The translations under genes and the position numbers were made by a program. A DNA stretch of 64,000 nucleotides from Acanthamoeba castellanii str. Neff (lineage: Eukaryota > Discosea > Longamoebia > Acanthamoebidae): contig NW_004457712.1 in the NCBI RefSeq assembly GCF_000313135.1, positions 361,294 through 425,293 of the forward strand, read 5' to 3'. The notes under the pieces are model-generated. The model saw only the letters and a program-made list of their open reading frames with translations. It was not told the origin of the DNA and did no database searches. Below, piece by piece: positions 13,097 through 57,534 of the stretch; positions within the stretch are counted from its first letter, which is position 1, and the number at the start of each line of letters is the position of its first letter.

Positions 13097-16000
13097 ATGG
13101 AATTCTCACATTCCGCCGGCAGCGGTATCTTTTCGTTTGATCGACCCGTCCATGGATCGCGCGAGCGATGCTCTACGTGGGTCTTCGGCACCCCCACGCC
13201 CCAGCAAGTGGAAGAGAAATTCAACACAATGCGACCAGAGGACGCATACACGAAACTGGAAGAGGTAAGTGCTTGTTTCATCGTTGAATTGCATGGCTAG
13301 CTCAGCAGAGATCTCTAAATTAACTCTCGATTTAATGCACAGCTAATCTTGGAAGAAAAATATGACTTATTGTTGGTTGCGATGGAGGCTGTCCGACATC
13401 TTGAGGATAATGATGTATTGGTATTTACCTCCTTCGCTCGGTGCAGCTGCCGATTTCCCCCACGCTAACTTTTACCGCAACAGATACAAGCGGTGGTGTC
13501 AATAAGTGAAGCACACAACCGCATCTATGCTCTGCTGCGGCAGGCCATCCACCAGGAGGTGACCAATTTTACAGGTAGCTGCTGCATCGCACCCCTCGCA
13601 TGTCGTGCCTTTCGCTAACCACTTGCGTTCAACACCAAAGCCAAAGCGATGTTTCTTCTCTCCAGCACTTCCCTCTCTTCGGAGACCGACAAGCTCTCCA
13701 TCTCTGCGTTCTTCCGAGAAGGGAGCACTGCCACGTATCTTCTGTCATCGTGGATGTTCCGGTAAGTGCCTCCTTCATCAACACGCTGACGGTTCTTGGT
13801 CTAACGCTAAGATCTTCATCTTTCTTCTCCTTAGGGAGGGTGAGCCGTATCTACAGCGCACGCTGTACCCCTTTGTGTCTAATATTTGTAAAAACGAGGT
13901 GTGCTTCGAGATGGACCCGCATCGGGAAACGAATCCCGCGAAGGTGGAGTCCAATCTCTCCCGGCTACTGTGTACAGCCAAGCAAGTGGTGGATCACATC
14001 TGCTGCTCGCTTAACTCCATCCCAAAGTACCGTCATTCCCACTCTACACCTGATCCCTGCAGCAACAGACTCACTCTCGTTTCGTCACCAGCATATTGCG
14101 GCGTATTTTTTGCTTCCTGGGCTCCGAGATCAAGCAGCGGTTCCCAGAGGAGGTCAACATGGTGCTCAGCGGATTCTTCTTCCTTCGCTTTTTGTGTCCG
14201 GCGCTCGTGACCCCCAACTTCTACGGCATTTGCAAGGGTATATCTCATCTCTGCCTCATTCTTGTGTGTAGTCATCCGCTCAACGTATGCTTGGTCCCTA
14301 CAGAACAACCGTCTCCTATCGCCAGCCGTTCCTTAATTTTGCTATCCAAGTTACTCCAGACAGTGTCAACGGGAGCCGAGTTTGGCGTGAAGGAGGTACT
14401 TCGAGACCAACATTCATCATGTACGAGTCCAATGCTGGTGCTGATTCTCTTTGATTCACAGGAGTACCTTTCTATACCCGCCCTAAATAACTTCGTTGCG
14501 GCGTACACACCGAGCCTGAACAGATTCTTCGCCCTCCTTGTGGTACATCTCCCGTCCTACTTCACTCAAAAGCGTCCTACCCCGTCACTCACCGACATGG
14601 TGTCACAGGAGGAGGATCTCCTAGTCCCCATCCCCGTCCCAAACACCAAGGTGCTTGGTTCCAACGGGCTCACCAATGGAACGGATTCCAGTTGGATGTA
14701 CAACAGCGGTAATTCGACGCTGAACCCCAAGTACCATGCAACAGACAATAACGGGCTGTACGTATTGAACCTAGGTCTTGATAGCTCATTTGTTCTTGCT
14801 GACCTTTCCTCTTGACCCAGCAACGGCACTACGCAACAGGGAAGCTCTTCTGCTCCAAGCCCGAGTCCGGCTGCGATCTTCGCCGGCGGTTCGCCTAGAA
14901 GGAGCCGCGCTCTGACGCAGCTCTCGCTCTACTTTGATCGCTCCAGTCCTCCTGCGGCTTCAAGCATCTCGCCCTCGGCTGTCACTCCATCGCCGCTTGC
15001 TCAAGTGGTGCATTCGAACTCACTCAGCTTTCCCGCGGTCTCTGCGGACCCACCGCCGCTGTTACACGCCCAGTCGCAGGGCCACCTCTCCACGCCATTG
15101 CCCCTCAGTACACACCACCACGGTCTACAGAGCGTATGTTCACCGCCCCAGCACGTGCACGCGATTAGCGATTCTCTATGCTGACATCGACCTTTTTTCT
15201 GGTATAACAGCCCGCAGCAGTTGCAATCACAGCTGCCGCTGTCGTGCAGCAGTCCCGACAGTCCTCGTCGCCCTCGTCTATTAAGAGATCGCGGGTGCTC
15301 AACAACTTCAAGGTACTGCGATCCCTGGATAACCGTACACCGCACATCTCACACCGCTTTGTATCCCTAGGTGGGCTCAATGCGGGGCAGTAAGACCAAA
15401 AAGAGCGCTCCCATGCTTCCTTCCTCTTCGCCCACCGTTCCCGAGCAGGACTTCAACTCCACTCATACCAACGTCGCAGCCATTCGCATCATTCGGTACC
15501 CCATCAGTTGGTGCAACTGTGCGGGATGAACGACAAAACACTGACCTTGCGTATGACAGGGAGCTGGCCGGCGAGGTGGTAGACCTGCGGGCTCAGCTGA
15601 GCGAGGCGGAGAGCCAGCGTCGGCTGCTAAAGCTCAAGAACGAGCGTATGGGAGAGCGCCTGCGCAGGCTCAACACCGAGACGGACACCGAACATGAGGA
15701 ACGCGAACGCGTCGGCCAGCACACGGAGACCGAGACCGAGGAGGAAATGCGCGACAGCGGGCTCAGCACCAAGGAGGCCAGCGAGAAAGAGGTCCTGGAC
15801 GCGATCGCCTGCGGGGCTAGCAGCGAGGAGGTGCTCGTGGTCATCAGCAGTCGGGCCAACCCCATGCTGCTCATCACCGAGGAGCGGAACGCTCAGCGAA
15901 GCATGAAGATGCACAAGCGAAAGCCGAAGCGCAAGGAGGACAAGGCGGCCAACGGAGGTGGCACGACCAAGAAGTGCGGCACGCTCAAGAAGAAGCGGAA

Positions 16001-22753: not shown

Positions 22754-25700
22754 ATGTCGCGTTTGGCGAGTGTTGTCGTTGTGGTTCTGCTTCTTGCAGG
22801 CCTTGGCTGGCCGGTACGCTCAGCCTTGGTGGCTTACTACAGCTTTGATGATCGTACGTTGATCGCTTAGCCTGCAAGATGCTTCAGCACTCCTGTTAGT
22901 AACTCTTTTAATCTATCAGCCGATGCCCCGTTGGCAGGAGTGAGTGGCTACTGCCCCAACGTCGTGCTTCGTAAGTAGCACCTCAGCTGATTCGCCCTTG
23001 TCTTCACTACTAACAACCTCGACCAAACCAGAACCGACACTTGCCGGCGGAGCAAAGGTGGTCAACGACAGCTGTCTGGCTGGTGGGTGCCTTCAAGCAG
23101 ATGCAGGCTTCGCCTGTGCGTCTCCTTTTCTGCACACGTCGATATGTCGTGGGTTCACTAATGCACCGGAGTTGCACAACACTCCAATCGCAATATTTGG
23201 CACGCAGTGCTCACGACGTTCAAGCTCTTCCAGTACTCGGACGCATCGCAGGTCTCGGTGAGCGCCTGGGCAAGGACCGCGTCCACAGGACCACTTGGTG
23301 GCTACATCGTCTACAAGTCGGACTGGTTCTACTTCGTCTATCTCGACGGGGTACAAACCTTCAAATTAAATTAAGCTCACTGTTTCTCCACGAGTAGTGG
23401 GCCAACCACAACTCACACTTGCTCTGACTGGCCAGGCGTTTACATGCGTGATCATATCCAGCACCAAGGTCTTTTCCACAACAAGCGTCATCATGGCCTT
23501 ATCGCACGACACCACCTACCACGTGGCATGCGCGCACGACGGCACCAAGCTGTGCGTCCATATCAACGGAAACGTGACGGTACAACAACACCACCCTGCG
23601 ATGCCCAAGCGGCGCAAGCTAATCGCACTTCTCAAATGGAAGGAGTGCACTGCGGGCAAGGGGCCGTTTTCGGAGGGAGGTCTTCTGTTCTTTGGCGGCG
23701 TGGGTGCTTCCTCGAGGTGGAATGGCACGGTCGACGAGGTAGGCATCCCTTGATTCGCAACATCGCATTTGTGTTGTTAGCTGATCACAATTGCAATCAG
23801 ATCAAGCTCTATGACCACGGGCTCACACCGCAGGAGGTTAGCCAACTCGTAAACTTTGTTGAACCCAATGACGTGCCCTCCGTGCACATCGGTATGTGAC
23901 TATAGCAAGGGCAACCTACCCCCTTTGCTCATTGATTTCTCTTGACGGGCAACACTCCAGAGAGCAACGGCACAGCTTTGAGCTCGCTCAACGTGGACTC
24001 CCTGACCAACGTCACCCTGACGACGGTGGTGCAAGACGCCCGCAAGGCCTACTCTGGCTCCGCACAAACCGTTGGGTATGAAGGCGAGATGCTCTACCAG
24101 TGGACCGTTTTGAGCAGCAACTGCGGTGGCATGCAGTTCAGTGCGCCAGCCAACCAGACTACCAACGTCGCCTTCTCCGCACTCGGCGCATCCACAGTAC
24201 TCCTTACCCACGCACCCTTGGGGTCTCTGTCAGCACATGCACTGACAAGGCTTGCCGGTACAGATGAAGGTCTGCGTTTCAGATGGCGAGATTGCCGGCG
24301 AGTTCAACCTGTATACTGCGGCCGGAGCCAGCGTTCCCCAGCTTGTCTCCCAGCCACTGACCAGTGAGATCAATATCCCTGGTAACTCCATCACACCGGT
24401 CACTCCCTGTTTCTGTAGTGTCGCTGACCATGTGTCTTGTACAAATCAGAGGGTGTCATTGATTATCCAATCACGGTGGAGGGCATGAGCCTGCCGCCAC
24501 CGTCGTACCAGTGGGAAAGACTGGCGCCCGTAGTGCATAACGACACCAACATCGGCAACATTTCTGCCCGCTTTTACATGGGTGGCGAGGTGTGTACAAA
24601 CAAGTGACACTGCTGCGCGACATTGACGCTGAGGAATGCACCGTGTCATATGCGCGCAGGAGGCCGGCCTGCCGGTTATGGCCGCTCTCAAAGAGAGATT
24701 GAGAGAAAAGAGACAGGAAGAGCCCATTTTGGTACGCCGCCTTCGTTTGATGGAAGTCATCAACACCCGACAGCTCCCCACACAGTCCTACGCAGGCCTT
24801 CCAATCCATCCCTGGAGCCACGGAGAACACTCTGCATCTCAACGGCACAAAGGACTGGCATGGTGCGGTCATCCGATGCTTGGTGTTTACCACACGCAGC
24901 TCTACCCCGACCAACAACTTCACCATCTTCATCTCCTCCGCGTCCACATCGTACGGAGCCTCTGCACCTTTGCTTGCAGCTAACATACGCCAGGTGAGCT
25001 GACCGAAGGCTACCACCACCTCCACAGGGACGGGTCATCGGACGCTACACTTATTGGCGGAGTCGTGGGAGGCGTGGGCGGAGCGCTCTTCTTGCTCTGT
25101 CTTCTCCTTCTGCTTCTCGCGATCGTGGCTGTTTCGAGGCGCCGTCGCTCCGCGTACCGCAAGCTCACGCAGCCGGACTACGAGGCAATCGCCTTCGGAG
25201 ACGTTAAAGAGGACGTCGCGCTGCCGAAGAAGCAGGCGGAGGTTGGTCCCCTTACTCTCCTTAGCACCAGCAGTCGTTGCTCACTGACCACTCCAACAGG
25301 AGTACCGGCAACTGGAACACCTGCTTACTGCGCCAGACCATCGGCTGGCCCTGGCCATTTGTGATGTGGCAGATATGAGCGATAAAGACACCGTACGAAC
25401 GCTCAATCTCTCACCCTAACCGAGTAACTAATATCCCTGTGTGTTGGCTCCACACAGGTGTACAAAGCGGTGCTGCGGGTGCTGGCAGATCAGTTCCAGG
25501 CCTACAATCTCGTTGCGCACTCCATCACGCGCGAGGTGAGCATCGCCGACGAAGAGGGCACGCTGTTCCGGTCCAACAGCGCGGCGGCCAAGCTCTTCAC
25601 CCTATACATGCGCATGATCGCGCTCAAGTACACGTGGCACGTCTTGGTGCTGTCATTGCATTCCCTGAATGACAACGCTCGCGATGCCGACGCGGGTCGT

Positions 25701-26869
25701 TCCCGGGATGCCGGAAGCTCCCACGGAGCCAGCAGCAGCCGGTCGAAGGTCTTCGGAAACAAGTACCGAGTGGAACGGGACGACTCTGACTCTGATGAAG
25801 GCTCAGTATCGCTGGACATTCCGGGCGCCTCATCGATGGAACTCGATCCTCAGGTTCACCTTCGGCGTGGCCGTTTGCCGCGTCCACCACCAACCTTGGT
25901 TCGCACGTAGTTCTTGGCTAACCACATTCCACGCGGCAGAAACTGGACGAGGCGTCGGACCTGGACATCAACACTCTCGAGCTCTGGCTCACCGCTCAGA
26001 AGATGTTCAAACTCATCGTGCAGAGCGAAAAGAGCCTGCCGCGAGAACTGCGCATGCTCATCCGCCGCATCCGCGATGACGTACGCCTGGCCTGTCTTCG
26101 TCCCAATCGGTTGAGTATAGCCTGCTAATGCTGTGGGCACAGGTGGCGGAGAAGTTCAGCGATGAGGCCGTGTTCCGGGCCATGGGCGGATTCTTCTTCC
26201 TGCGCCTCATCTGCCCGGCCCTCCTTGCGCCTCAAGTTCACGGCCTCCTCGACGAGCCGCCTCATCCCGTACCTTCCACCCAAAAGCTTGCGCTCTTGAT
26301 GGTTGGTAGTCACTCAACACGCGGATTGACTGACTTGGCGCGGTTTGTGGTGGTGGGTACAGATGGCGCAGCGGCAGCTGATTCTGGTGACCAAGGTGCT
26401 CCAAAACCTGGCCAACGACACCCTGCCCGGAGCTAAAGAGGTACCACCCTCATCATCTTGGATGTGGCCTTGCTTTTGCACCGGAACTGATTCAAAGGTG
26501 TACCTCTACCATACACAGGCGTACATGGAGCGGCTCAACGCGTTCATTGTGTCCAACAAGCCCGCCCTCAGTCGCTTCTACGACCAGATCGTGGACCACC
26601 CGGAGCGCGGCAAGCTCACCGACATCACCGTACGCTTTCACTGGATCCAATCCTGGCGCAATCCACCTAACTCTTCAACCAACCACTAGGTGCCAGCACG
26701 CGCTCGCAACGATGCACTCATCAAGCTGCGCACATTTTTGGAGGCCAACCTGGCTGGCGTGGAGGCCCACCTCCGCGCCCATGGCGATGACAGCGACGAG
26801 AGCGAAGAAGTTGTGCTGGAGCTGCGACGTATTCTGCACAAGGAGTCGTCCGCCATCGACCAAGTGTGA
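22754..26869 (+). CDS. Receptor-type RasGAP, copy 1 (LamG - PKD/Ig-like - TM - RasGAP)
   Basis: First copy of a four-gene tandem array. The signal peptide is M-S-R-L-A-S-V-V-V-V-V-L-L-L-A-G. First exons: 22754-22853 and 22920-22970. The LamG core shows LVAYYSFDD, SVSAWARTASTGPLGG, YHVACAHDGTKLCVHINGNV and IKLYDHGLTPQEV. A PKD/Ig-like part follows (MKVCVSDGEIAGE; GAVIRCLVF). The membrane span starts near 25050 (ATLIGGVVGGVGGALFLLCL) and is followed by SRRRRSAYRKL and DYEAIAFGDVK. The RasGAP part has the arginine finger LFRSNSAAAK and FFFLRLICPALLAP, and the gene ends LHKESSAIDQV, stop TGA. It is the most diverged copy: the ectodomain has an unusual Arg/Glu-rich exon at about 24660-24730, and the juxtamembrane motif is DYEAI rather than DYEEV. 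Activity on Ras is inferred from the family. Confidence 0.85.
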
Positions 26870-27020
26870 CGCAGGCGCAGTCGACAGAAGAATCGGGAGT
26901 AAATGAGGCCATTTCCCGGTGTACTCCGATTTGTCGGCCTTCCCCGAAGGGCGCAGAGGGGGCACAACGCGTACCACGATCACTAACTAACGACCTAATA
27001 AGAATTGGGAGGTGTCTTCT

Positions 27021-30000
27021 ATGAGCGGCATGCCGCTCCTCACCAAGTTCGCCTTGGCCTTGGTTCTCCTTTGGACTTGTGGGCCAGCTGCCGTGCGACC
27101 CACCCTGGTGGCCTATTACAGTTTTGATGGTGCGGCAGTACCTCCCTCTTCTTCCCCGCTTTTTAGCGCCGCGACTCAACATCCCGCGAGAGTAGGTGCT
27201 TCGGTTGGCCTAGTGGAGGGGCTGAGCGGCTACTGCCCTAACGTGGTTAGTCGTACGTAGCAGAAGTTAATACACTTGAAAGGCCAGCGACGGAGCACTT
27301 ACACACGTTTCTCCGCAGCTGGCACTCTGAGCGGCACGGCCACAATCATTTCGGGGCAGTGTAAGTACGGTGACTGCCTCGACCCCGGCTCAGATGGATC
27401 GATGCGTACCCGCACCCTTCTTCTGCCACACTTTCTTCGCCCCCAATTAATTAAGTGGATCGTGACCCTCGCAGAGCTGACACAACAGCTTTTCCAAGGC
27501 CGAGGCGCCTCGGCAAACTCCGTTTCGTTCAGCTTGTGGGTGCGGCGGACCGGAACAAACAACTTCGTCTACATCCTCTCGAAGCGCGAGTTGGTCGGAG
27601 TGCTCTACGTTCCTGGAGGAGGGGAAGGGGGAAGGGATGTGGTAGGTGATAGGCACAAGGGCTCAAGAAGCTTGCCCCAGTGTGCGCGTGCATGTGCGTC
27701 GTGTAAGTGTTGTATCATGTGCCGTGTTTTGTGTCGACCTCATCTCTCTGGCTCGCGGCCTTTGACAGGTGGCGTGCACGCTCGTGTCGAGCACCAAAGA
27801 GGGTGCCCAGGCAACGGCAGAAGTCACTCTGCAACCTGATATCAACTACCACATTGCTTGCGTCTACAACGGCTTGGACATATGTGTGTATGTCAACCAC
27901 ACTCTCGCCTCGGTACGTACTGATTCTTGCTCTTTTGTGATCACGAGCACCCCTCAAGCGAACATCACTTCTCTTCCAGGGCTGCAAAGAGTGGGGGGCA
28001 AAGACCTTTTCAGATGAATGGGCAACCATGAACGTCGGGTCTGCCCCCGGCCAACCGGAGTTTCGTTGGCCAGGCACCATTGATGAGGTTTATCGCTTTC
28101 GCCAATGCTCTCTCACTATTGTTCGGGCATTCACTCACCAATTACGTCAATTGCGCTCCAGTTGAAGATTTACGATCACGCCCTCAGCTCGGCAGAGCTT
28201 GCGCTTCTGAGCAGCACTGCGGGCCCCAACGATGCACCGTCTGTGCGATTTGGTGCGATTGAATGCTTCTCGGGATGTGCGTTGTGCTGATCTAACTCCT
28301 GGCTTGCAGAGGTCGGTGGCAATGAATACGGGAGCTCATACACCGCACAGGTCTTCAGTAACTTCACCATGACGGCAGTGGTGAACGACTCCTTCAAGGC
28401 CTTCTCTGGCGCCCCTCAGGGCAGCGGCTACGCTGCCGGCTTCACCTACAAATGGCAGGCCCTCAGCGACACCTGCGGTGGCGTTATGATCAAGTCGCCG
28501 ACATTAATGAGCACGCAGATGGTGCTAGAAGACGTCGGCACCTCCACGGTGACCTACCCACTTCTTTGCTTTAGAGATTTGGTCAGGCCACTTGTTCTCA
28601 CCCATCCATTCCACGCGCGTAAACAGTTGAAGCTGTGCGTGTCAGATGGTGAGATCGCCCGTGAGACCATCCTGTCGCTCAGTGCCTCAGCAAGCACACC
28701 CCAGCTGATCAGGCAGCCATCTACTTCCACCATCCAGGTTCCTGGTACGTTGTGTGCCCAGTCAAGGAAAGCCTGTTTGTTGGCTCCGTGAAGCACTAAT
28801 TAGTTGATGGGTGGTCACAGCTGGGACGGTGGACTTTGCCATTTCCGTGGAGGGTTCTAGCTTGCCGCCGCCGTCGTACCAGTGGCAACAGTTGGTCAAC
28901 GTAACCGTCAACCGGACGTCAGACGTGGGCAACCTCACGACGCGTGGTGTTGATTACCATTCCAGCTATTTGGTGCGCACCACAACGAATGCAGGCCACT
29001 CCGCAAAAAGACTCACTCATCTTCCAGGAAGAGTCGCTGGGCATGCGCACAGCGATGTTTGCGTCAAGAGGCTTGATGATGGCACGAGAGGAGGTTGAAG
29101 TTGAGGCACGTAGCGCACCTGCTCAGACCATCTTTTCTGTGTTCACTTACGGAGAAAAACAGGAGTTCCGCTCGATTCCGGGGGCCACCTACGGCACGTT
29201 ACTTGTCAACGGCACGGAAGAGTGGGACGGGTCCGTCATCCGGTGTCTGGTCTACACCACCGGAGGCGGCACGTTCACCAACAACTTCACCGTTGTGATC
29301 AGTGAAGCCATTCCTTCCTCCACGTACGCTCTTTCTCTCACATATGTGTCCCCGTGTTGTGGAAACTGATTGAACGTGCATAGTGGAGGAGACTCAGATG
29401 CGGCGCTTATCGGAGGCATTGTCGGAGGCGTGGGAGGAGGCCTGCTCTTGTGCCTCTTGCTGCTTCTGGTTATCGCCGTCGTGTTGATGGCCACTCGGCG
29501 GCGGAGAGCAACAGCCTATCGCAAGCTCAAGCAGCCAGACTATGAAGAGGTGGCGTTCGGCGATGTCAAGGGCGATGTCACCCTGCCCAAGAAGCAGGCC
29601 GAGGTATCGCCCAAACCACATCATCTCCACCACTCACTCGGAAGTACGCCACGAAATCAACTCACATGCACGTCATCACAGGGCTACCGGCAACTGGAAC
29701 AGCTGCTGGCCAATCCCGACCACCGGCTTGCGCTTGCCATCTGCGAGGTCGCCAGCATCGGCGAACGAGATGCGGTACACGCCCTCCCTTATCACTGCTG
29801 GTTCTGATGATGCCGCCTGATGTCTCATGCACACGACAGGTAATGGCAGATGTACCGGGCGCTGCTGCGAGTGCTGGCAGGCCAGTTCCAGGCCTACAAC
29901 CTCATCGCGCGCACCATCAAACTCGAGGTGGCATCGGCCGACGAGGAGGGCACGCTGTTCCGGTCCAACAGCGCGGCGGCCAAGCTCTTCACCCTCTACA

Positions 30001-31319
30001 TGCGCATGATTGGGCTCAAATATCTGTTTCACGTGCTTGTGCTGTCGGTCCGCTCGCTTCACGACAACGCTGTCGACACCAACGCCGCCAGTCGTACGCG
30101 CATCACACAACCTTTCTCCTTTCCTAATTCCATACACTGACGTTTGTACTTTTTGTGATGAGCAGGAAACAATCAAGGGGCACCATCAGCGTCATCATCA
30201 AGTTCCCGCATCTTTGGGCACACGTATCGAATCGATCGGGATGACGCTGACGGCGAAGAGAGCAGTGCCGTGTCGATGGACATCCTGGGCGCGTCATCAA
30301 TGGAGCTCGACCCTCAGGTTCGATTGGTCGCAGGCTACGTTTTGCGTTATTGCTGTGGCTTACCCAGGGGGAATGCGTGCACATGGCAGAAACTGGACGA
30401 GGCGTCGGACCTGGACATCAACACGCTCGAGCTCTGGCTCACCGCTCAGAAGATGTTCAAACTCATCATGCAGAGCGAGAAGATCCTGCCGCAGGAGCTG
30501 CGCCTGCTCATCCGCCGCATTCACGATGACGTACGTCTTTGTTTGCTTGGTACCCTGATTGTTGGCGAGGCTCACAAATGCGAGCGCGGACAAACAGGTG
30601 GCGGAGAAGTTCAGCGACGAGGCCGTGTTCAGGGCCATGGGCGGTTCTTCTTCCTTCGCCTCATCTGTCCGGCACTTCTTGCGCCCCAGCTGCACGGCCT
30701 TCTCGACGAGCCACCTCACCCCGTACCTTCAACTTCCTGCGCGTATGACCAGCTGTTCACTCACCAAATATTGTTGGCCGCATCAACGCGTGGGCGCGGG
30801 GTTGTGGTGGTGAGGACAGATGGCGCAGCGGCAGCTGATTCTGGTGACCAAGGTGCTCCAGAACCTGGCCAACGACACCCTGCCCGGCGCCAAGGAGGTA
30901 TCAGACCTGCAATACTGTCCTCGAAGCACAAAACTCATCGAGCGTTATTGCTCCTACACAGGCATACATGGAGCGGCTCAACGCGTTCATCGTGTCCAAT
31001 AAGCCCGCCCTCGGTCGCTTCTACGATCAGATCGTAGACCACCCCGACCACGGCAAGCTCACTGACCTCACTGTGCGGCCTTCTTCCCCAACCACATTCT
31101 TTCCATCCATTTTCTTCTCACCGCTCGGTATTCTGCTAGGTGCCGGCACGAGTGCGCAACGACGCACTCATCAAGCTGCGGGCGTTTTTGGAGGCCAACC
31201 TGGCCGGCGTGGAGGCCCGCCTTCGCGACCAGGGCGATGACGACGAGGGTGATGATGTGGTGCAAGAGCTGCGCGACATTCTGGACAAGGAACCGGTGTC
31301 GCCGATTGAGCGAGTATGA
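27021..31319 (+). CDS. Receptor-type RasGAP, copy 2
   Basis: Second array copy, with the same order of exons as copy 3. The start ATG at 27021 (alternative ATG at 27030) gives the signal peptide LTKFALALVLLWTCGPAAV; the first exon ends at 27129. The LamG part includes LVAYYSFDG, FSLWVRRTGTNNFVYIL, YHIACVYNGLDICVYVN and KIYDHALSSAELALL. The PKD-like part has LKLCVSDGEIARETILSLS; the membrane-proximal Ig-like part has IPGATYGTLLVNGTEEWDGS with a following cysteine. The membrane span is near 29405-29495, followed by RRRRATAYRKL and DYEEVAFGDVKGDVTLPKKQ. The RasGAP domain has LFRSNSAAAKLFTLYMRM and FFLRLICPALLAP, and ends E-P-V-S-P-I-E-R-V, stop TGA 31317-31319. It lies 151 bases after copy 1. 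No broken exon was noticed, but I did not trace every junction here as I did for copy 3. Confidence 0.84.
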
Positions 31320-31571
31320 AGGCAACAACATCCTCATGTGACGGAAGAAGTGGAAGAGTATTAAGTAATTACTTGCTTCCGATTGGCTTTAGCCGTGGCA
31401 GCAGAAAATCGGAGTTTATTCTCTTCTTCTCTGTCTTCTTCCTCTTGTCTAGTTGCCCGAACCCGAAGGAGTTTTGCATAACGGCGAAGATACTTCGCTC
31501 ACCAAGTGCAAGGTCCCGATCCTTGCAAGTGTTCGTGCTTGCTTATTAATATCTCTAACATCCAGCAAGTC

Positions 31572-34500
31572 ATGCGTGTCACAGCACTCACGTTTGTCTG
31601 GTTGGCGCTTGCTGTCCTGTGGGTCTGCGGACCGTATCCTGTGCGATCGACTCTTGTCGCCTACTACAGCTTTGATGGTATCTCTCCCTCCTCCTTCCCT
31701 CTGTTTATGGCAACTCCTTAACTGTTTGCGTGCTGCAGGAGCTACAAACGCAACTGTGGAAGGGCTGAGTGGCTACTGCCCCAGTGTTGCGAGCCGTATG
31801 TTGATCTTGTCAAGCCACCAAGATACGGTGAGCGCTAAACAGACCAGCACTTCTAACGTGGCATTTCTCCAACCTTTGCAGCCGGTCAGATGACAGGACC
31901 CAGCATCACGTCGATAGGGTGCATGTCCGGTGACTGCCTTGTCCCCGCCACCGGATCAATGCGTACCAGCCCAGCTCGTTTAACTCCGAAAGTCGTATTT
32001 TAACGTTTTGACAACTGGCACTATAATGTCCCAGGGGTGAAGCAGAAGATGTTTCAGAGGGTCACCGTGGCCAATGTGATATCTTTCAGCCTTTGGGTGC
32101 GACCATCAGCGGCAGTGGCGGACAAAGCAACCTACATTCTCTTCCAACCCAACTTGGTTCAGATAATGTATCTACCAGGAGGCCTGTACCCCTCACAGGT
32201 ATGCGCTCCCTACTCCGCTTACCTTTGGGACTTCGCTTATGCGGCATTGACTAAGATGCGGCCCTGCAGATAACGTTTTTACTCTTTCACTCCATCCAAG
32301 CCAGTTCCGTGGTGTTTGCAAACATCACTCTGCAGCCCAGTGAGAGTTATCACCTGGCGTTCATTTATGACGGTGAGAAGCTGTGCATCCACGTCAACAA
32401 CACCCTCGCCTCGGTACCACACCCACCTTCAATCTGCTCCTTCCCACACTGCTGCAGTAATCGCTCACTCGATTGCAACAACTTGATCAGAATTGCATGG
32501 CGCAGCCTGGGGTGACACTATCGGACTCTGAAGCTGGCTTGGATGTAGGTTCCAACTACAACGCCGCGCAATCAAGTTGGAAGGGCACCATTGATGAGGT
32601 TCGCTGTTGGATCTTCGTTCCTCCCAACAAATTGACACTTGGTGCACGAAGCTGCTCACCACCTTACGCCACACTCCAACCCAACAGCTTAAAATTTACG
32701 ATCACGCCCTCAGCCCAATTGAGCTTGCGCTCCTCAGTAGCTCCGCAGCCACAGCCAACGATGTGCCAACCTCGCAGTTTGGTACGCATTAAATTTTGGC
32801 GCCTGATCACCGGTACACACAACTAACAGCATTGATCATTAATGGCGCAGAGGTCGATGGAACCATCTTGTCAGCAACGTCGTATACTGTGCCAGCCTAC
32901 CAAAATGTCACCCTGACAGCGGTGGTGAACGACTCCGGCAAGGCCTTCTCTGGCGCTCCGCAGGGCATCGGATACGCCGACGGGTTCGGTTACACATGGC
33001 AGGCCCTCAGCACCACCTGCGGCGGCATCACGATCACCTCACCAAGGTCGAGGAGCACGCAGATGTCCTTCAATGATGTCAGCTCCGCCACGGTAAACAC
33101 CCCTAACCTAAATGACATGTCACACACGCCCTGACTGACCTGAGAATGACGCACCACAGTTGAAGTTGTGCGTGTCCGACGGTGAGATTGCCCGCGAGAT
33201 GACACTGGCACTGAGTGCGTCGGCTAGCAAGCCCATACTTCTTCGGCAACCAGCCTCTGTCGTCCAAGTTCCAGGTTCGACTTTCTATGCGCTCGACTCC
33301 TGTCCTTAATGACGTAACTCACTGCACGTGGGGGTCACAGCTGGGGCAGTGGACTATGCGATCTCTGTGGAGGGCAGGAGCTTGCCGCCTCCTTTGTACC
33401 AGTGGCAGATGCTGGCGAATGTCACTGTCAACCAGACCTCGCTGGCCACACGCAGCCTCTACAGCGAGTTGCTGCAGGAGCATCCGTCTGACATTCACTA
33501 TTCGATGTTGGTGGCACGAGGAGTGATGGTGGCTCGGGTGGAAGTCCAAGTCGAGGTAAATCTCCCCGGATTCATGGAGAACAGTACCTGGGGTCTCACC
33601 GTGAAACAACTACAGGACTTCGTTACGATCCCTGGCGCCACGTTCAGCACGCTGCTTGTCAACGGGACCGACGAATGGGACGGCTCCACGGTCAGGTGTC
33701 TGCTCTACACCACTGGCGGCACCACGTTCACCAACAACTTCACCGTCGTGATCGGATCGGCCCTGCCCACCACGTACACTGCACTCCACACTTCGACATC
33801 TACACTTTGCCTTGGCTGACTACCGCTCGGCGGGTCACAGTGGCGGCGATTCGGGGTCGGACGATGCAGCGCTGATTGGAGGCATTGTTGGGGGCGTGGG
33901 CGGAGGCCTGCTCGCGTGCCTCTTGCTGCTCCTGGTGATCGCTGTAGCGTTGGTGGCCACCCGACGGCGGAAGGCAGCCTACCATAAGCTCAGGCAGCCG
34001 GACTACGAGGAGGTGGCGTTCGGCGACGTCAAGGGCGACGTCACCCTGCCCAAGAAGCAGGCCGAGGTAATCGATATGCCACAACCATGATACAAACTCT
34101 GATTGGACGCACCACTCACTGCGAGTGTTGCGATTGGTCTTTGGCGGCGCACCAGGAGTATCGGCAACTGGAACAGCTGCTGGCCAATCCAGACCATCGA
34201 CTCGCCCTCGCCATCTGCGAAGTTGCCAGCATTGGCGAGCGAGACGCTGTACGCCCCCCCCCCAAGCCTTCGCCCCTAATGGCTCACCCCGAGATTGCTC
34301 ACTTGACTGTACCGGGCACAGGTATACCGGGCGCTGCTGCGAGTGCTGGCAGGCCAGTTCCAGGCCTACAACTTCATCGCGCGCACCATCACTCTCGAGG
34401 TGGCATCGGCCGACGAGGAGGGCACACTGTTCCGGTCCAACAGCGCGGCGGCCAAGCTCTTCACCCTCTACATGAAACAGATCGCGCTCAAGTATCTGTG

Positions 34501-35809
34501 GCACGTGTTGGTGCTGTCGCTCCACGCGCTCAACGACAACGCCGTCGACAACGACCACAGTGCGTACCCTATCCTGACCTGTTGATGAAGTGTCCAATCA
34601 TGACAATGGTGACTGACGCCAAGACATTGCAGGAGCCAAAGACGCATCGTCTTCGTCGTCTTACAGCAGCTCTCGCGTGTTTGGCAACAAGTACAAGGTT
34701 GACCGTGACATTGATCCAGAAGCCGAAGGGAGTGATTCAATGTCGATGGACATCCTGGGAGCATCATCCATGGAGCTTGACCCTCAGGTTTATAACACCA
34801 GAACTTTATCTCGGCTGAGTACTTGCACATCTGACCCCTGGCCCATACTACACCCTGTCACGGCAGAAACTGGACGAGGCGTCAGATCTGGACATCAACA
34901 CTCTCGAGCTCTGGCTCACCGCTCAGAAAATGCTCAAGCTCATCTTGCAGAGCGAGAAGCTCCTGCCGCAGGAGCTGCGCCTGCTCATCCGCCGCATTCA
35001 CGATGACGTACGCCCTTTTTGGCCTCCTTTGATTTAAGTTGCACTCGGCATGGATTGGGCTCACAGGTTCACGGACACACAGGTGACAGAGAAGTTCAGC
35101 GACGAGGCAGTATTCCGGGCCATGGGCGGGTTCTTCTTCCTGCGCCTCATCTGCCCGGCCCTCCTTGCGCCCCAGCTCCATGGCCTCCTCGATGAGCCGC
35201 CTCACCCCGTAAAGAGTTTCCCCCTCCAGCTGCTCGTGCGCTTATGATGCTCACTCAGTTGGTGTGTGGGTTGTTGCCTGATGATGGACAGATGGCGCAG
35301 CGGCAGTTGATCCTGGTGACCAAGGTGCTCCAGAACTTGGCCAACGACACTCTGCCCGGCGCCAAAGAGGTACTGAATCATCGGCAATCATCCCTCTGTC
35401 GGCTTGCATCTGGCCTGACTCAGTTGCTCCCATTTTTATAAGGCGTATATGGAGCGGCTCAACGCGTTCATCGTGTCCAACAAGCCCGCCCTTGGTCGCT
35501 TCTACGATCAGATCGTGGACCACCCCGACCACGGCAAGCTCACCGACCTCGCCGTATGGATTTCTCTTTTTCTCTCCTGGCTGCTTTGTTCGTTTTCATT
35601 TCTTGGCTCACCGCAGCGTGTATTAGGTGCCGGCACGAGTGCGCAACGATGCACTCATCAAGCTGCGGGCGTTTTTGGAGGCCAACCTTGCCGGCGTGGA
35701 GGCCCACCTCCGTGCTGCCAGCGATGATGGCGATGAAGGCGAAGACATTGTGCGGGAGCTGCGGAACCTATTGGACAAGGAGCCGGCATCGCCGCTCGAA
35801 CGAGTATAA
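31572..35809 (+). CDS. Receptor-type RasGAP, copy 3 (fully traced, 944 residues)
   Basis: Twenty exons, all in phase: 31572-31677, 31739-31795, 31882-31962, 32035-32198, 32270-32413, 32491-32598, 32688-32781, 32851-33092, 33160-33274, 33341-33555, 33616-33773, 33841-34066, 34156-34248, 34322-34559, 34633-34787, 34867-35007, 35083-35208, 35292-35369, 35443-35553, 35627-35809. Domains: signal peptide 1-26; LamG about 29-250 (YHLAFIYDGEKLCIHVNN, KIYDHALSPIELALL); PKD-like about 255-370 (LKLCVSDGEIARE); Ig-like about 370-495 with a conserved R-C-L-L-Y; membrane span about 505-535; RasGAP 571-944. The probable arginine finger is R639 in G-T-L-F-R-S-N-S, and FFFLRLICPALLAP carries the Ras-contact helix. 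Juxtamembrane tyrosines are Y542 (YHKL) and Y550 (DYEEV). An acidic Ser-rich insertion splits the GAP domain. The C-terminus is L-E-R-V. The protein is probably a cell-surface receptor that turns off Ras-type GTPases; the ligand is unknown. Confidence 0.9.
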
Positions 35810-35989
35810 AAAATCATAATCAAGACGCAACTGTGTTTTTGTGAGCCCTCAGCGGAGAGTTGATTGTAGTGCCCCAATGAACGCTCCCTAGGAGCTTGAA
35901 GTTTTGATCACTGGGAGCATGGTGCCAGCCTCTGGATTAACTCCTGATCACTTCCACCACCATCACACAGGTACACCACAGCCATGGTC

Positions 35990-36490
35990 TTGTCATCAAT
36001 TGATTTAGGAACTTGGGGCAGAAGATGTTGAGTGCTAGTACAGCTGCCAACAGCTCTGTGCAGTGGATAGGCCAGTTGGTCTACACCCCCATGAAGCTCC
36101 CTCTGGCCTTCTCACACATCTCAGGTACTCAGTTGCCCCAGCCACAGCCACTGGCATCAGTCTGAATCCACACTGCCTTGGCAATGGGTTGATTGAACCT
36201 GTCAGTGGGCCAGCCCCAGAACCTCAGCACACTGGGGAAGGGCACTGTCTGTGGTACCAGGCCTGGGTTGAATCTCCTCACATCAGCAATGAGCTGCTCC
36301 TCATTGCTGATGTGAGCTGGTAGCCTCTGTTTGCTGTTCCCAAACTTCTTGGGGCAGGCTTTGGCCAGGTGTGGACTGCTGCATACAAAACACACCAGCC
36401 TTTTTATTGCTCTCTTGGTGGTCTCACTAGGGGTGGCAGCCAGAGGGAGCAGCATTAATGCTGTTGAAGCCAACTTGACTGGCCACACAC
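35990..36490 (-). mobile_element. Decayed DIRS-like retroelement fragment (RNase H part)
   Basis: Read on the minus strand from about 36488, one frame gives a zinc-knuckle-like C-F-V-C-S-S-P-H-L-A-K-A-C, then FNQPIAKAVWIQTDASGCGW followed by a TGA. After the TGA and a TAG the same frame continues with HCTELLAAVLALNIFCPKF. The pairing of T-D-A-S-x-x-G-W-G with H-x-x-x-E-L-L-A-A-V-x-A-L is typical of the RNase H region of DIRS/Ngaro-type and related retroelements. The two in-frame stops and the short span show it is a dead remnant. No termini or target-site duplication were identified. Confidence 0.65.
36277..36316. repeat. 17-bp perfect inverted repeat with 6-nt loop
   Basis: CTCACATCAGCAATGAG (36277-36293) is followed by a 6-nt spacer and its exact reverse complement (36300-36316). 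It lies inside the retroelement remnant and could form a hairpin or cruciform. Confidence 0.9.
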
Positions 36491-37078
36491 CCCATGCCTG
36501 GCCAGCCCTCCCCTTCCTCCAGCCACTCCAAAAAACCTTGGTCTTGCCCTTGAGCCAACAAATGCACTTGGCCCTTGACCTGGCTCTTAGTCAGGAGTGG
36601 CTGGTAAGTCTATCCTGGTTATGAGGAAACTGTAGAAGCAGGGATGCAGAAGCACCTTGTTCTTGGCCATGAGAGCAAGGCTCACCAGGTGATATGGCAC
36701 ACGTTTCTGGTTTTAGACAGAAACTCCACATTCTCCTTTTTTGGCTTTGTTGCGCTTTTTAAATGTTCAGTCCTTCCTGATACATCGTGAGCTGCCAACC
36801 AAACTCCGCGGGAGCCCCCTTGGCTCCTTGACACAACAACGACACACAAGATGGAACCCTAGGGCGGAGCTCCGGAACATTCCGACAAAACTTGCCTCGC
36901 CAATCGGGCGAGTTTGACGCGAGAGCGCTTGTTCCTACTGGCTTATGTCAAGACCAACCGGAATCGGAGATGTTTGCCAACGTTCTTCGCTTTTGCCCCG
37001 AGACCGGAATACTCTCTTGCCAAGTCCAACAAGGGAGGTTCACTCGCAAGTGCTTGTTGTGTTTGTTCTGAGTCAGCC

Positions 37079-40000
37079 ATGCGTGTAAGCCGCACACCAC
37101 TCTCTTTGGTGTTGGTGTTTTTTGTTGTGTGGACCTGCGCACCTTGCCCTGTGCAATCAACTCTGGTAGCTTACTACAGCTTTGATGGTACCTAACCCCC
37201 TCTCCCTCCTCTCTTGCAAATGCAAGGAACTAACAAATAACACAGGAGCGACAAACCAAACCGTGGAGGGGCTGAGCGGCTACTGCCCCAACATTGTAGG
37301 ACGTGCGTAGCAGAGTTGTGGTGCGGGAAACCATTAACTAACTGATCTCTGTAACTTTTGCAGCGGGCAAGCTGAGCGGACCCAGCATCACGTCCACCGG
37401 GTGCCTGTCTGGCGATTGTCTTTTCTCCGCGGCTGGATCAATGAGTGCGTACCTGCCACACACCATGTTAATTAACTCCGTAATAATCAGAAGCTTAATC
37501 AACACAATTGTGTCGACCACTCGCAGAAATGACCCAGAAAGTGTTTCAGAGGGTCGCCGTGGCCAAGGCGATCTCTGTCAGCCTTTGGGTGCGTCCATCC
37601 GCGGCAGTGGCAGACGGAGCCAGCATCCTTGTTTACCAACCCTACTTGACGTCGATATCATACTTTCCCGGTGCCACCCCATTGGTACGCTCTCCCTGAT
37701 TCCATTCACTCTCGGTAGAGGCCGCCGGCGCGCTAACTCAGTGTATGGCCTGCAGGTCACATGTGCTATTTATTCCAGCACCCAAGGCAGCGGCCAGGTG
37801 TTTCTTCCCTTCAGTTTTCTGCCTGATGTGAGTTATCACCTGGCGTGCGTCTACGATGGTGAGAAGCTGTGCATCCACATCAACAACACCCTCGCCATGG
37901 TACCACGCCTTCTATTCCCACAGCCACTAACTTAATCGCTCACTGGACTGCAACTTGACCAGAACTGCGCGCTGAGCCCCGGTTTCACATTTTCAGACGC
38001 CAACCCTGATTGGGAGGTGGGTACCGCTACCAGCTTCGAGGTGTATCGGTGGAGAGGCACCATTGACGAGGTTCGTTGTTGATCCCCACAAACTTCAATG
38101 GACGATGCTATTTACCACACACTACACACAACTTCGCAGTTCAAGATCTATGACCACGCCCTCACCCCAACTGAGCTTGTGCTGCTTAGCGGCGCCACAG
38201 CCACTGCCAACGATGCACCAACAGTCAATTTCGGTACGCAATTGTAGCCCTGTACGTACGATTGAGGTGAACAGCTAACAGATCTGATGGCTTAACGGCG
38301 CAGAGGCCGATGGAACGATCTTGTCAACTACGTCGTACACCACGCAGCCCTTCATCAACTTCACCATGAAGGCGGCAGTGACCGACTCTGGGCAGGCATT
38401 CTCTGGCGCTCCTCATGAGAGCGAATATGCCAAGAGGTTCACCTACGCATGGCAGGCCCTCAGCACCACCTGCGGCGGCGTTACGATCAGTTCACCAGCG
38501 TTGAGTAGCACGCAGATGTTCTTCAACGAAATCAGCGCCGCCACGGTACCGCATCAGCTTCTACAACCACACTTACCCAAGCATACCTCTGAAACGCTGG
38601 ACATTGTGTGGCACAACAGTTGAAGTTGTGCGTGTCGGACGGCGAGATTGCCCACGAGGTGGCATTGGCGCTGACCGCATCGGCCAGCAAGCCTGAACTG
38701 ATCCGGCAACCACCTTCTGTGGTTCAAGTTCCGGGTATGTCTCCACGCCTATCTCTACTTCGCGCTGCTCAACTCACTGCACGTGGTGCCACAGCTGGAG
38801 CAGTGGACTACGCCATTTCCGTGGAGGGCAGAAGCTGGCCGCCACCGTCGTACCAATGGCAGATGCTGGTCAATGTCACCGTCAACCGGACCTCGAATCC
38901 GGTCAACATCACTACACGCGGTCTCTACGGTGACATGCTGCCGGTACGTGGCCGACCTACAGCCAATTGTTCTTTTGTTGATAGGGCTCGCAGCTCACGA
39001 CGCTGCGGGCAGGCGGATCCGGTGAGCATCGTCTTTTCGATGATGACGGAGCGAAGCCGGATGGAAGCTCGAGAGGAAGTCCAAGTCGAGGTACCCATTC
39101 AACAGAAAATGTGGACATTCTGCATTGTCCTTGTAACCGGTCTCCATCATCAGGACTTTGTGCCGATCCCTGGCGCCACGTTCAGCACGCTGCTTGTCAA
39201 CGGGACCGACGAATGGGACGGTTCCACGGTCAGATGCTTGCTCTACACCACTGGCGGCACCACAGCCACCAACAACTTCACTGTCATGATCGGATCGGCC
39301 TTGCCCACCACGTACTGCATCACGACCACCTTTGCCTTCCTGCGTTTGTTATCTTGACTAACTGCCAGGAGACAGTGGTAGTGATTCGGATGACGCGGCG
39401 TTGATCGGAGGCATTGTCGGTGGCGTGGGCGCAGGCCTGCTTGTGTGCCTCCTGCTGCTCCTGCTGATTGCCGCCGTGTTGGTCGCCACTCGGCGCCGGC
39501 GAGGAGCCTATCGGAAGCTCAGTCAGCCGGACTACGAGGAGGTGGCGTTCGGCGACGTCAAGGGCGACGTCACCCTGCCCAAGAAGCAGGCCGAGGTAAT
39601 TGATGCCAAGCCACGATACAAACTCTGATTGGACGCAACACTCACTTGTGATTGGTCTTTGGCGGCGCACCAGGAGTATCGGCAACTGGAACAGCTGCTG
39701 GCCAATCCAGACCATCGGCTTGCCCTCGCCATCTGCGAAGTTGCCGGCATGGGCGAGCGCGACACGGTACGCCCTCCCAACTATGGCCTTCGATGGAGAT
39801 GGCCATTCCCTTCTGGCTGGTGGCTCACACGACGGGGAATGGCAGATGTACCGGGCGCTTCTGCGAGTGCTGGCAGGCCAGTTCCAGGCCTACAACTTCA
39901 TCGCGCGCACCATCACGCTTGAGGTGGCGTCGGCGGACGAGGAGGGCACGCTGTTCCGGTCCAACAGCGCGGCGGCCAAGCTCTTCACGCTGTACATGAA

Positions 40001-41294
40001 ACAGATCGCGCTCAAGTATCTGTGGCACGTGTTGGTGCTGTCGCTCCACGCGCTCAACGACAACGCCGTCGACAACGACCACAGTGCGTATTCCACCCTG
40101 CTGAAGTGTCCAATCATGACAATGGTGACTGACGCCAAGACATTGCAGGAGCCAAAGACGCATCGTCTTCGTCGTCTTACAGCAGCTCTCGCGTGTTCGG
40201 CAACAAGTACAAGGTCGACCGCGACATCAATGTGGAGGATGAAGAGAGCGGTTCTGTGTCGATGGACATCCTGGGCGCGTCATCAATGGAGCTCGACCCT
40301 CAGGTTTGGAACCATAACTAATCCATGCTGGCTGAACACTTGCAGACATCTGACTCGAGTCTGATGTGAATGCACATGGCAGAAACTGGACGAGGCGTCG
40401 GACCTGGACATCAACACGCTCGAGCTCTGGCTCACCGCTCAGAAAATGCTCAAAGTCATCATGCAGAGCGAGAAGAGCCTGCCGCAGGAGCTGCGCCTGC
40501 TCATCCGCCGCATTCACGATGACGTACGTCTTTGTTTGCTCGGTACCCTGATTGTTGGCGAGACTAACAGGCGCGTGATGACAAACAGGTGACGGAGAAG
40601 TTCAGCGACGAGGCCGTGTTCAGGGCCATGGGCGGGTTCTTCTTCCTGCGCCTCATCTGTCCGGCACTTCTTGCGCCCCAGCTGCACGGCCTTCTCGACG
40701 AGCCGCCTCACCCCGTACATTCCCGCAAAGCTGAAAGCACATGATGATCGCCAGCCAATCTGCAAATCTCAACGATCGATTTGTGGTGGGGAGGACAGAT
40801 GGCGCAGCGACAGCTGATCCTGGTGACCAAGGTGCTCCAGAACCTGGCCAACGACACCCTGCCCGGCGCCAAGGAGGTATCTACTTCACCGCCCTTTTTC
40901 TCAACCTTCATCCCGCATTGACCAACACTCAACCATACACAGGCGTACATGGAGCGGCTCAACGCGTTCATCGTGTCCAACAAGCCCGCCCTCGGTCGCT
41001 TCTACGATCAGATCGTGGACCACCCGGAGCGCGGCAAGCTCACCGACATCACCGTACGTCACCACACCGCACCCTGTCCGTCACACTGCAACTCACCCAA
41101 TTCGACTGCCCGGGGGCTTTTAAAAGGTGCCAACACGAGCGCGCAATGATGCGCTCATCAAGTTGCGCTCCTTCCTGGAGGCCAACCTCGGCAAAGTTGA
41201 AGCCGCGCTGAAGGACGATGGCGAAGACGAGGCAGAGGAGGTCATTGCCGAACTGCGTCGCATCCTACACAAGGACTCCGGAGATCAGGTGTAG
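37079..41294 (+). CDS. Receptor-type RasGAP, copy 4
   Basis: Fourth array copy. The start ATG at 37079-37081 gives signal peptide MRVSRTPLSLVLVFFVVWTC. The LamG part includes LVAYYSFDG, SVSLWVRPSAAVADGASILV, YHLACVYDGEKLCIHINN and KIYDHALTPTELVLL. The PKD-like part has LKLCVSDGEIAHEVALALT; the Ig-like part has IPGATFSTLLVNGTDEWDGS. The membrane span is near 39395-39490, followed by RRRRGAYRKL and DYEEVAFGDVKGDVTLPKKQ. The RasGAP part has LFRSNSAAAKLFTLYMKQ and FFFLRLICPALLAP, and ends LHKDSGDQV, stop TAG 41292-41294. Its introns resemble copy 3 at 39596-39673 and 40084-40148 but copy 2 at 40524-40588, while the C-terminus resembles copy 1. It ends 47 bases from the convergent RasGEF stop. Confidence 0.86.
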
Positions 41295-57460: not shown

Positions 57461-57534
57461 ACAGATCTTATTTCAACCATTCCATTCTCTCCTTTGTTCA
57501 CCAACGTCGTGCCGTGTGTGTGTGTGTGTCGTCT

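Follow-up and report, generated by a model that had tools for sequence, protein, structure and literature searches.

A tandem array of four predicted receptor-type RasGAP genes in Acanthamoeba castellanii and its place in a putative wider family

The stretch of DNA analysed here, referred to as the window, comprises 64,000 nucleotides of the Acanthamoeba castellanii str. Neff genome (NCBI RefSeq assembly GCF_000313135.1, contig NW_004457712.1, positions 361,294 to 425,293 of the forward strand), and it carries four genes in tandem on the + strand, from the ATG of copy 1 at 22754 to the stop codon of copy 4 at 41294, that encode predicted receptor-type RasGAPs. Their common plan is a signal-peptide-like start, an ectodomain with a LamG/ConA-like lectin domain followed by PKD-like and Ig-like parts, a single predicted membrane span, and a RasGAP domain. 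An array with these end points, and the architecture of a lectin/matrix-type ectodomain, one span, and a classic RasGAP, had been proposed from the DNA letters (the original prediction); our analysis bears out the former and supports the latter. The array is real, but its setting is wider than was supposed: sequence comparison indicates that the four genes arose by tandem expansion within a single branch of a larger receptor-RasGAP family, and the best reading of that family is a modular one, distinct from the plexins, in which the same span-plus-GAP unit would be combined with differing ectodomains. We consider it probable that the array proteins, as the tandem branch of this family, are single-pass type I receptors whose contact with a ligand yields local hydrolysis of Ras-GTP.

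Domain content and gene continuity

The inner part of the array proteins falls within the RasGAP family by profile, residues, and predicted fold. Copies 1, 3, and 4, the three that were scanned, all match RasGAP (PF00616) in Pfam with E values of 3e-27 to 2e-29 and 96-104 bits against a cut-off of 28.3, covering profile positions 1-207 or 2-207. These three copies possess both the arginine-finger motif, which aligns with TLFR of p120GAP, and the FLR motif. The finger arginine, the FLR arginine, and QNLAN are invariant in 21/21 rows of a family alignment that omits P0082 and all window models except P0001, a contig-encoded counterpart of copy 2 described below. The GAP domain is apparently competent. 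Between its finger and FLR halves lies an insert of ~55 residues, low in complexity and acidic/serine-rich, in which copies 3 and 4 are 89% identical and all other pairs 51-68%.

The spans of the array have Kyte-Doolittle scores of 2.97-3.19, with 6-7 Lys/Arg after the span and 0 before it, an asymmetry that implies an N-terminus outside and a C-terminus inside; each copy likely has one type I span. The same layout extends to 26 receptor-type rows (the four window copies, P0001, P0003, P0046-P0060, P0062, P0063, P0065, P0066, and P0082), two of which represent copy 2 and some of which nearly duplicate one another. In 26/26, the strongest hydrophobic stretch outside the first 40 residues scores 2.2-3.9 and is positioned before the GAP, with 2-9 Lys/Arg directly after it and 0-1 directly before. 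A P-x-aromatic motif follows the span in 24 of these rows, and the distance from span to finger is 101-124 aa. The juxtamembrane tyrosine was considered as an SH2-docking site (YEEV, copies 2-4), a proposal that we did not adopt, as several members have Phe in place of Tyr.

For the ectodomain, the expectation of a signal peptide and one span stood insofar as a hydropathy peak lies inside residues 3-25 in every copy and the span shows its charge asymmetry, with the signal peptide called from hydropathy. The predicted LamG, PKD, and Ig parts fared unequally: LamG passes in copies 1, 3, and 4 (Laminin_G_3, E 1e-12 to 1e-13, 49-52 bits vs a Pfam cut-off of 27.6), but neither PKD nor Ig gave a Pfam match in these copies scanned singly. 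Among the 21 family members, K319L-like_PKD is found in 4, with a best E value of 1.8e-4 (P0046) that is under the curated cut-off, and Ig_3 in 5, with a best E value of 1.6e-4, while the family profile matches the DSCAM Ig domain in PDB at E 2.9e-17. The PKD and Ig labels therefore derive from other family members and a profile, and are weak for single proteins. Several clostridial neurotoxin receptor-binding domains also match the LamG part in fold searches, and kinship with toxins was rejected, as only the common jelly-roll fold is involved.

A complete RasGAP domain with an arginine finger had been claimed for every copy, which proved correct for copies 1, 3, and 4 but not for copy 2. This copy follows the common plan from 27021 and retains an intact finger, but its FLR exon (from ~30598) is one base short, at 125 nt vs 126 nt in the other three copies, and breaks the frame in the assembly. 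The same shifted stretch occurs in P0002, a 728-aa NCBI protein of A. castellanii str. Neff that starts within the ectodomain and is without LamG. P0001, in contrast, is a 951-aa protein in a 2987-nt contig with no room for introns, and it holds ectodomain and RasGAP in a single open reading frame (ORF). It differs from copy 2 by 1 residue over 787 aa (99.87% identity), and because this near-identical protein reads the FLR motif intact, the break in copy 2 is probably an assembly error, or possibly an allele. The contig of P0001 also confirms the GC-AG intron of copy 2 (29106-29162), which is read through in the annotated P0002.

P0003 likewise has ectodomain and RasGAP in a single ORF, in a contig too short to hold introns. 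To judge from its residues, it is closely related, as an allele or strain ortholog, to a gene at C101 elsewhere in the genome, with 9/17 pieces >=90% identical and the remaining pieces at 69-85%, some of which may extend into introns. The original prediction could have failed had the two parts belonged to separate transcripts or had the inner part fallen outside the RasGAP family. Neither is the case: domain searches place the inner part within that family, and P0001 and P0003 show the two parts joined, by which an artificial fusion of neighbouring genes is rejected for both copy 2 and the C101-like gene. Within the array, only copy 2 shows the linkage directly; in copies 1, 3, and 4 it follows from the gene structure common to all copies.

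A putative family of receptor RasGAPs

By our count, searches of the A. castellanii genome (38.4 Mb in 250 contigs) yielded 36 RasGAP loci. A span lies directly before the GAP in 12 of the 36, as judged from the models for the window copies and from a scan for the 32 other loci; this count is a lower bound, as the first recognised GAP exon starts within the domain in many loci and an upstream span could be missed. Eight are of the LamG-PKD-Ig type (the four window copies, C85, C246, C101, and C203), three are 5'-nucleotidase-like, and one is of the CUB type. L017 and L018 are counted from the span scan and are not among the loci printed by the combined span and motif scan. C200, where a run of N upstream precluded a judgement, resembles P0046 and would be a thirteenth receptor-type locus. 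Upstream hydrophobic stretches also occur at L021, L028, L029, L033, and L035; these were set aside as receptor-type candidates (low complexity, stop-interrupted, or motif absent) and were not resolved gene by gene.

The 5'-nucleotidase C-terminal domain is found at C124, in two adjoining genes (L031 and L032, near 946 and 952 kb), and at C79 (L037, near 523 kb), in each case followed in a row by an EGF-like stretch, a span, and a RasGAP. EGF-like matches were obtained in both C124 genes, and the stretch at C79 was recognised by eye only. These three genes would represent an enzyme-like ectodomain on a RasGAP. The C90 locus (L045, C90:392500-398500) has CUB pieces (E 1.5e-5, 3.1e-4, and 7.1e-4), a span, the juxtamembrane sequence EPDYYQLV, and a RasGAP with the finger MFRED, in which QGIVTG replaces QNLAN. 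In the nucleotidase and CUB types, the order of the parts, their spacing, and the juxtamembrane motif suggest that ectodomain and GAP are linked.

Relatives elsewhere, in Balamuthia as well as in environmental sequences and EukProt, were gathered with the inner part of P0003 as the query; 43 proteins were found, including JGI and 'lgn' contigs and EukProt transcripts. LamG and RasGAP occur together in P0048 (A. castellanii Neff) and in P0055 and P0056 (Balamuthia mandrillaris) by precomputed Pfam matches, and much of the remainder consists of p120GAPs and other RasGAPs without LamG. Other ectodomains stand on the same inner unit: P0065 has an EGF ectodomain, and the long ectodomain of P0082 gives Ig/FN3-like (E 0.0018 and 0.014) and EGF (3.4e-5) matches, all under cut-offs. 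P0063, the one member in which PSI and TIG were each matched in the 21-member scan, has a PSI/TIG ectodomain resembling that of plexin-A4 (E 7e-10), and its GAP is nearest to NF1 (6e-32). The ~340 residues ahead of its first PSI-like core contain a weak WD40 match (E 0.046) and may form a propeller.

In a GAP-domain tree of 47 rows, all receptor types together with the C124 gene L031 form one clade (99/99), within which the LamG-type rows form one clade (98/92), and the 8 p120GAP rows are separate (100/100). Of 58 GAP domains, 11 had been dropped beforehand, among them fragments and near-duplicates; P0001 stands in for copy 2, and neither the CUB gene nor the nucleotidase genes L032 and L037 are included. 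P0082 and L031 are long branches of unsure exact placement. When the longest rows were removed (6 more long rows dropped, and P0082 and L031 tried singly and both left out), the receptor clade retained a bootstrap of 99-100 in 3/3 trees. The clade is partly a product of sampling by similarity to the inner part of P0003, by which receptor RasGAPs of other branches could be missed. Among the 21 family members labelled as LamG type, P0057, P0060, and P0066 are without a Pfam LamG match and that of P0046 is partial, so that the label reflects their place in the family.

The array proteins share with plexins a single span followed by the RasGAP fold, but plexins carry Sema, PSI, IPT, and Plexin_cytopl, none of which is matched in copies 1, 3, and 4 at E values up to 1 (HMMER filters drop most matches above ~0.1), and plexin membership was rejected on this account. 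In P0063, Plexin_cytopl (PF08337) is also without a match at E up to 10, subject to the same filters. The identity of the array GAP is 10-13% to plexins and 24-27% to p120GAP among the fold-search rows listed. The p120GAP/RASA1 members P0004-P0007 have SH2, SH3, PH, and C2 beside the GAP, none of which is present in copies 1, 3, and 4, and their GAPs group outside the receptor clade. NF1, with which the family shares the Ras-type catalytic motifs, is the best profile match of the family GAP (E 3e-50). P0048, P0055, and P0056, with the domain pair and clade of the array proteins, bear the database names 'GTPaseactivator protein for Ras-like GTPase', 'Ras GTPase activating protein ira2', and 'Inhibitory regulator protein BUD2/CLA2', in which the receptor architecture is unnamed.

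RasGAP, LamG, and receptor RasGAPs in the form of plexins are all already known, and the co-occurrence of LamG and RasGAP is visible in precomputed Pfam matches. In the open-licence PMC literature, which excludes preprints and most subscription papers, our searches yielded no paper on RasGAPs that span the membrane, plexins excepted, and nothing on LamG with RasGAP, on Balamuthia mandrillaris with RasGAP, on a protist transmembrane RasGAP with an extracellular domain, or on plexin origin with choanoflagellate, semaphorin, and RasGAP together. The term 'rasgap' is absent from the main text of the A. castellanii genome paper, the supplement lying outside the search (PMC4053784), and plexins have been proposed as a Choanozoa feature (PMC6374515). 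A defensible case can be made that the array family is a separate class of receptor RasGAPs.

Selection between copies 3 and 4 differs along the protein, with dN/dS values of 0.11 and 0.07 in the GAP halves, 0.16 in the span plus juxtamembrane region, and 0.40, 0.39, and 0.30 in LamG, PKD, and Ig, respectively. The GAP is conserved and the ectodomain diverges under looser constraint, a pattern also known from other sets of receptors. Other copy pairs are partly saturated, and pairs with copy 2 offer 49 codons for comparison in the second GAP half; the copy 2-copy 4 value there, 0.84, stands on almost no synonymous change. Synonymous divergence between copies 3 and 4 is 0.17 and 0.26 in the GAP halves and 0.71 in LamG, and the low values in the GAP may reflect gene conversion, which would be patchy, because the values are not low in the insert (0.50) or across the last exons (1.5).

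Gene models and surroundings of the array

The coordinates of the array are collected in Table 1. Ab initio prediction across the window gave too many exons and merged genes, and was replaced by homology-guided models with splice sites checked by hand. Copy 3, which had been traced as 20 exons and 944 residues, was reproduced exactly. The guided program gave 961 aa for this copy and departs from the hand-traced model at exons 2, 3, 8, 14, 15, and 17; the latter was retained, as the other copies and P0001 show the same boundaries. The modelled introns are 55-127 nt in size, with 73/74 GT-AG and 1/74 GC-AG, and exon phases mostly match across copies. An ectodomain intron of copies 1, 2, and 4 is absent in copy 3, a GAP intron of copies 2, 3, and 4 is absent in copy 1, and the copy 1 intron 23580-23642 (63 nt) is ambiguous, as read-through likewise keeps the frame open. 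Copies 3 and 4 differ at 142, 117, and 251 sites in codon positions 1, 2, and 3 (933 codons compared), a third-position excess that is a coding signature.

Table 1. Positions in the window of the array genes and their predicted features
Feature	Copy 1	Copy 2	Copy 3	Copy 4	Strand	Basis or remark
Gene	22754..26869	27021..31319	31572..35809	37079..41294	+	Copies 1 and 4, homology-guided splice models, single open frame (copy 1 with Pfam LamG_3 and RasGAP); copy 2, traced to 30530, end is stop of conserved last exon; copy 3, hand-traced spliced model, single open frame
Exons; length	20; 922 aa	17 traced; 787 aa	20; 944 aa	21; 940 aa	+	
Exons, first half	22754-22853, 22920-22970, 23032-23115, 23208-23350, 23436-23579, 23643-23738, 23801-23891, 23961-24196, 24264-24381, 24450-24589		31572-31677, 31739-31795, 31882-31962, 32035-32198, 32270-32413, 32491-32598, 32688-32781, 32851-33092, 33160-33274, 33341-33555		+	
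Exons, second half	24660-24731, 24796-24950, 25028-25241, 25300-25392, 25458-25853, 25940-26080, 26143-26268, 26363-26440, 26519-26629, 26690-26869		33616-33773, 33841-34066, 34156-34248, 34322-34559, 34633-34787, 34867-35007, 35083-35208, 35292-35369, 35443-35553, 35627-35809		+	
Signal-peptide-like start	22754-22834	27021-27101	31572..31652 (residues 1-27)	37079-37159	+	Hydropathy
LamG/ConA-like lectin domain, introns included	22832-23824	27111-28185	31659..32711	37169-38163	+	
PKD-like core	24008-24296	28360-28659	32904..33192	38357-38652	+	Family members; strands in P0001 model
Ig-like domain	24506-24927	28877-29294	33397..33747	38851-39285	+	Family profile
Membrane span	25050-25136	29406-29495	33872..33961	39401-39490	+	Hydropathy and charge
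Juxtamembrane motif (QPDYEEVAFGDVK in copy 3)	25170-25208	29532-29570	33995..34033	39524-39562	+	
Arginine-finger motif (TLFRSNS in copy 3)	25560-25580	29952-29972	34424..34444	39948-39968	+	Aligned with p120GAP TLFR
FLR motif (FFFLRLICP in copy 3)	26191-26217	Frame-broken here	35131..35157	40637-40663	+	

The RasGAP exon blocks of the four copies are spaced by ~4.4, 4.5, and 5.5 kb, and the spacer between copies 3 and 4 (35810-37078) measures ~1.3 kb, whereas the two other spacers measure 0.15 and 0.25 kb. A RasGEF gene on the - strand, from 41342 to ~45700, is convergent to copy 4 and ends 47 nt from its stop codon (RasGEF E 1.7e-45 and RasGEF_N 9e-22 in an approximate spliced model). A Ras-on gene thus adjoins four Ras-off genes, a neighbourhood from which we draw no conclusion. 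Ahead of the array by ~8 kb on the + strand is a further RasGAP exon (14123-14368; E 2.3e-11 in an approximate model), with no span found ahead of the scanned part. At ~57500-59300 on the - strand, an approximate model has LamG_3 (9e-22) and lysyl oxidase (2e-23) domains and probably encodes a secreted protein.

Proposed contact-dependent Ras inactivation and its alternatives

RasGAP chemistry uses an arginine finger, and contact-dependent inactivation of Ras is suggested because of this chemistry together with the phenotype of Dictyostelium lacking the RasGAP NF1. There, loss of NF1 leads to larger macropinosomes and higher Ras activity at uptake sites (PMC4374526). In the mechanism that we propose, the ectodomain would lie outside the cell or in the phagosome lumen, and the short basic stretch and conserved aromatic juxtamembrane motif would keep the RasGAP narrowly spaced from the inner leaflet. 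Binding of a glycan or glycoprotein, whether on a food microbe, the substratum, or another amoeba, might then gather or orient the receptor, and Ras-GTP, as the presumed substrate, would be hydrolysed at the contact site, which could limit PI3K/actin-driven protrusion, cup size, or adhesion. The original prediction envisaged that surface contact would lead directly to Ras switch-off, and the route would be of this kind. Several points weigh against it. A tethered GAP need not be regulated by a ligand, a lectin fold by itself is no demonstration of sugar binding, and the ~55-residue insert could alter or control catalysis. The signal peptide is called from hydropathy alone and the topology from hydropathy and charge alone, the PKD and Ig matches of single proteins are weak and under the Pfam curated cut-offs, and copy 2 is incomplete as a gene in the window sequence.

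The alternative that survives best, although we regard it as unlikely, is that span and ectodomain only tether or place the GAP, in a surface patch or phagosome membrane, with a constitutively active GAP and an ectodomain for adhesion or sorting. The narrow distance between span and finger (101-124 aa) suits plain membrane presentation, and the free variation of ectodomains among family members is what would be expected of a mere address function. However, the ectodomain, while diverging faster than the GAP, is constrained (copy 3 vs 4 dN/dS 0.30-0.40 vs 0.07-0.11), and eight loci of one ectodomain plan better suit diversified recognition. We consider it improbable that the RasGAP domain is instead non-catalytic, an effector or scaffold that binds the GTP forms of Ras-family proteins in the manner of IQGAP. 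The GAP domains of IQGAPs match both profile and fold, and the insert interrupts the GAP domain; against this, the two arginines and QNLAN are invariant in the 21 rows (the C90 relative departs from QNLAN), and the active GAPs NF1 and p120GAP match far better (3e-50 and 3e-44) than IQGAPs (3e-13). Scarcely credible is an artefact of gene models or assembly in which surface-protein and RasGAP exons are separate genes. In its favour, the annotated Neff protein P0002 lacks LamG and so falls short of the full fusion, and no transcript was seen for copies 1, 3, and 4 or the nucleotidase- and CUB-type loci. Against it, P0001 and P0003 have the fusion in single intron-free contigs, by which the artefact is already contradicted for copy 2; P0048, P0055, and P0056 carry both domains by precomputed Pfam; and exon phases are common to the copies.

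Receptors usually reach Ras via exchange factors, which turn it on, or recruited cytosolic GAPs, which turn it off, and to our knowledge, the receptors known to have a GAP built in are the plexins. It is an evenly balanced judgement whether the proteins described here form a class of receptor RasGAPs that is separate from plexins and has gone unrecognised, with a conserved span/basic/aromatic/GAP unit, at least five and perhaps six ectodomain kinds (LamG-PKD-Ig; 5'-nucleotidase-like with EGF; CUB; EGF; PSI/TIG; and repeat-rich Ig/FN3-like with EGF), and at least 12 loci in one amoeba, in which ligand binding turns off Ras locally. If so, the PSI/TIG form would amount to a plexin-like receptor on an NF1/p120-like GAP, which would make it a convergent plexin or else a clue to the ancestral stock of plexins. 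A dozen receptor RasGAPs in an amoeba lineage would demonstrate that a built-in off switch arose or existed beyond plexins and would offer a separate system in which the control of a GAP by an ectodomain could be tested. It would also provide concrete candidates for the restraint of Ras, PI3K, and actin by a professional phagocyte at its contacts with food and surfaces.

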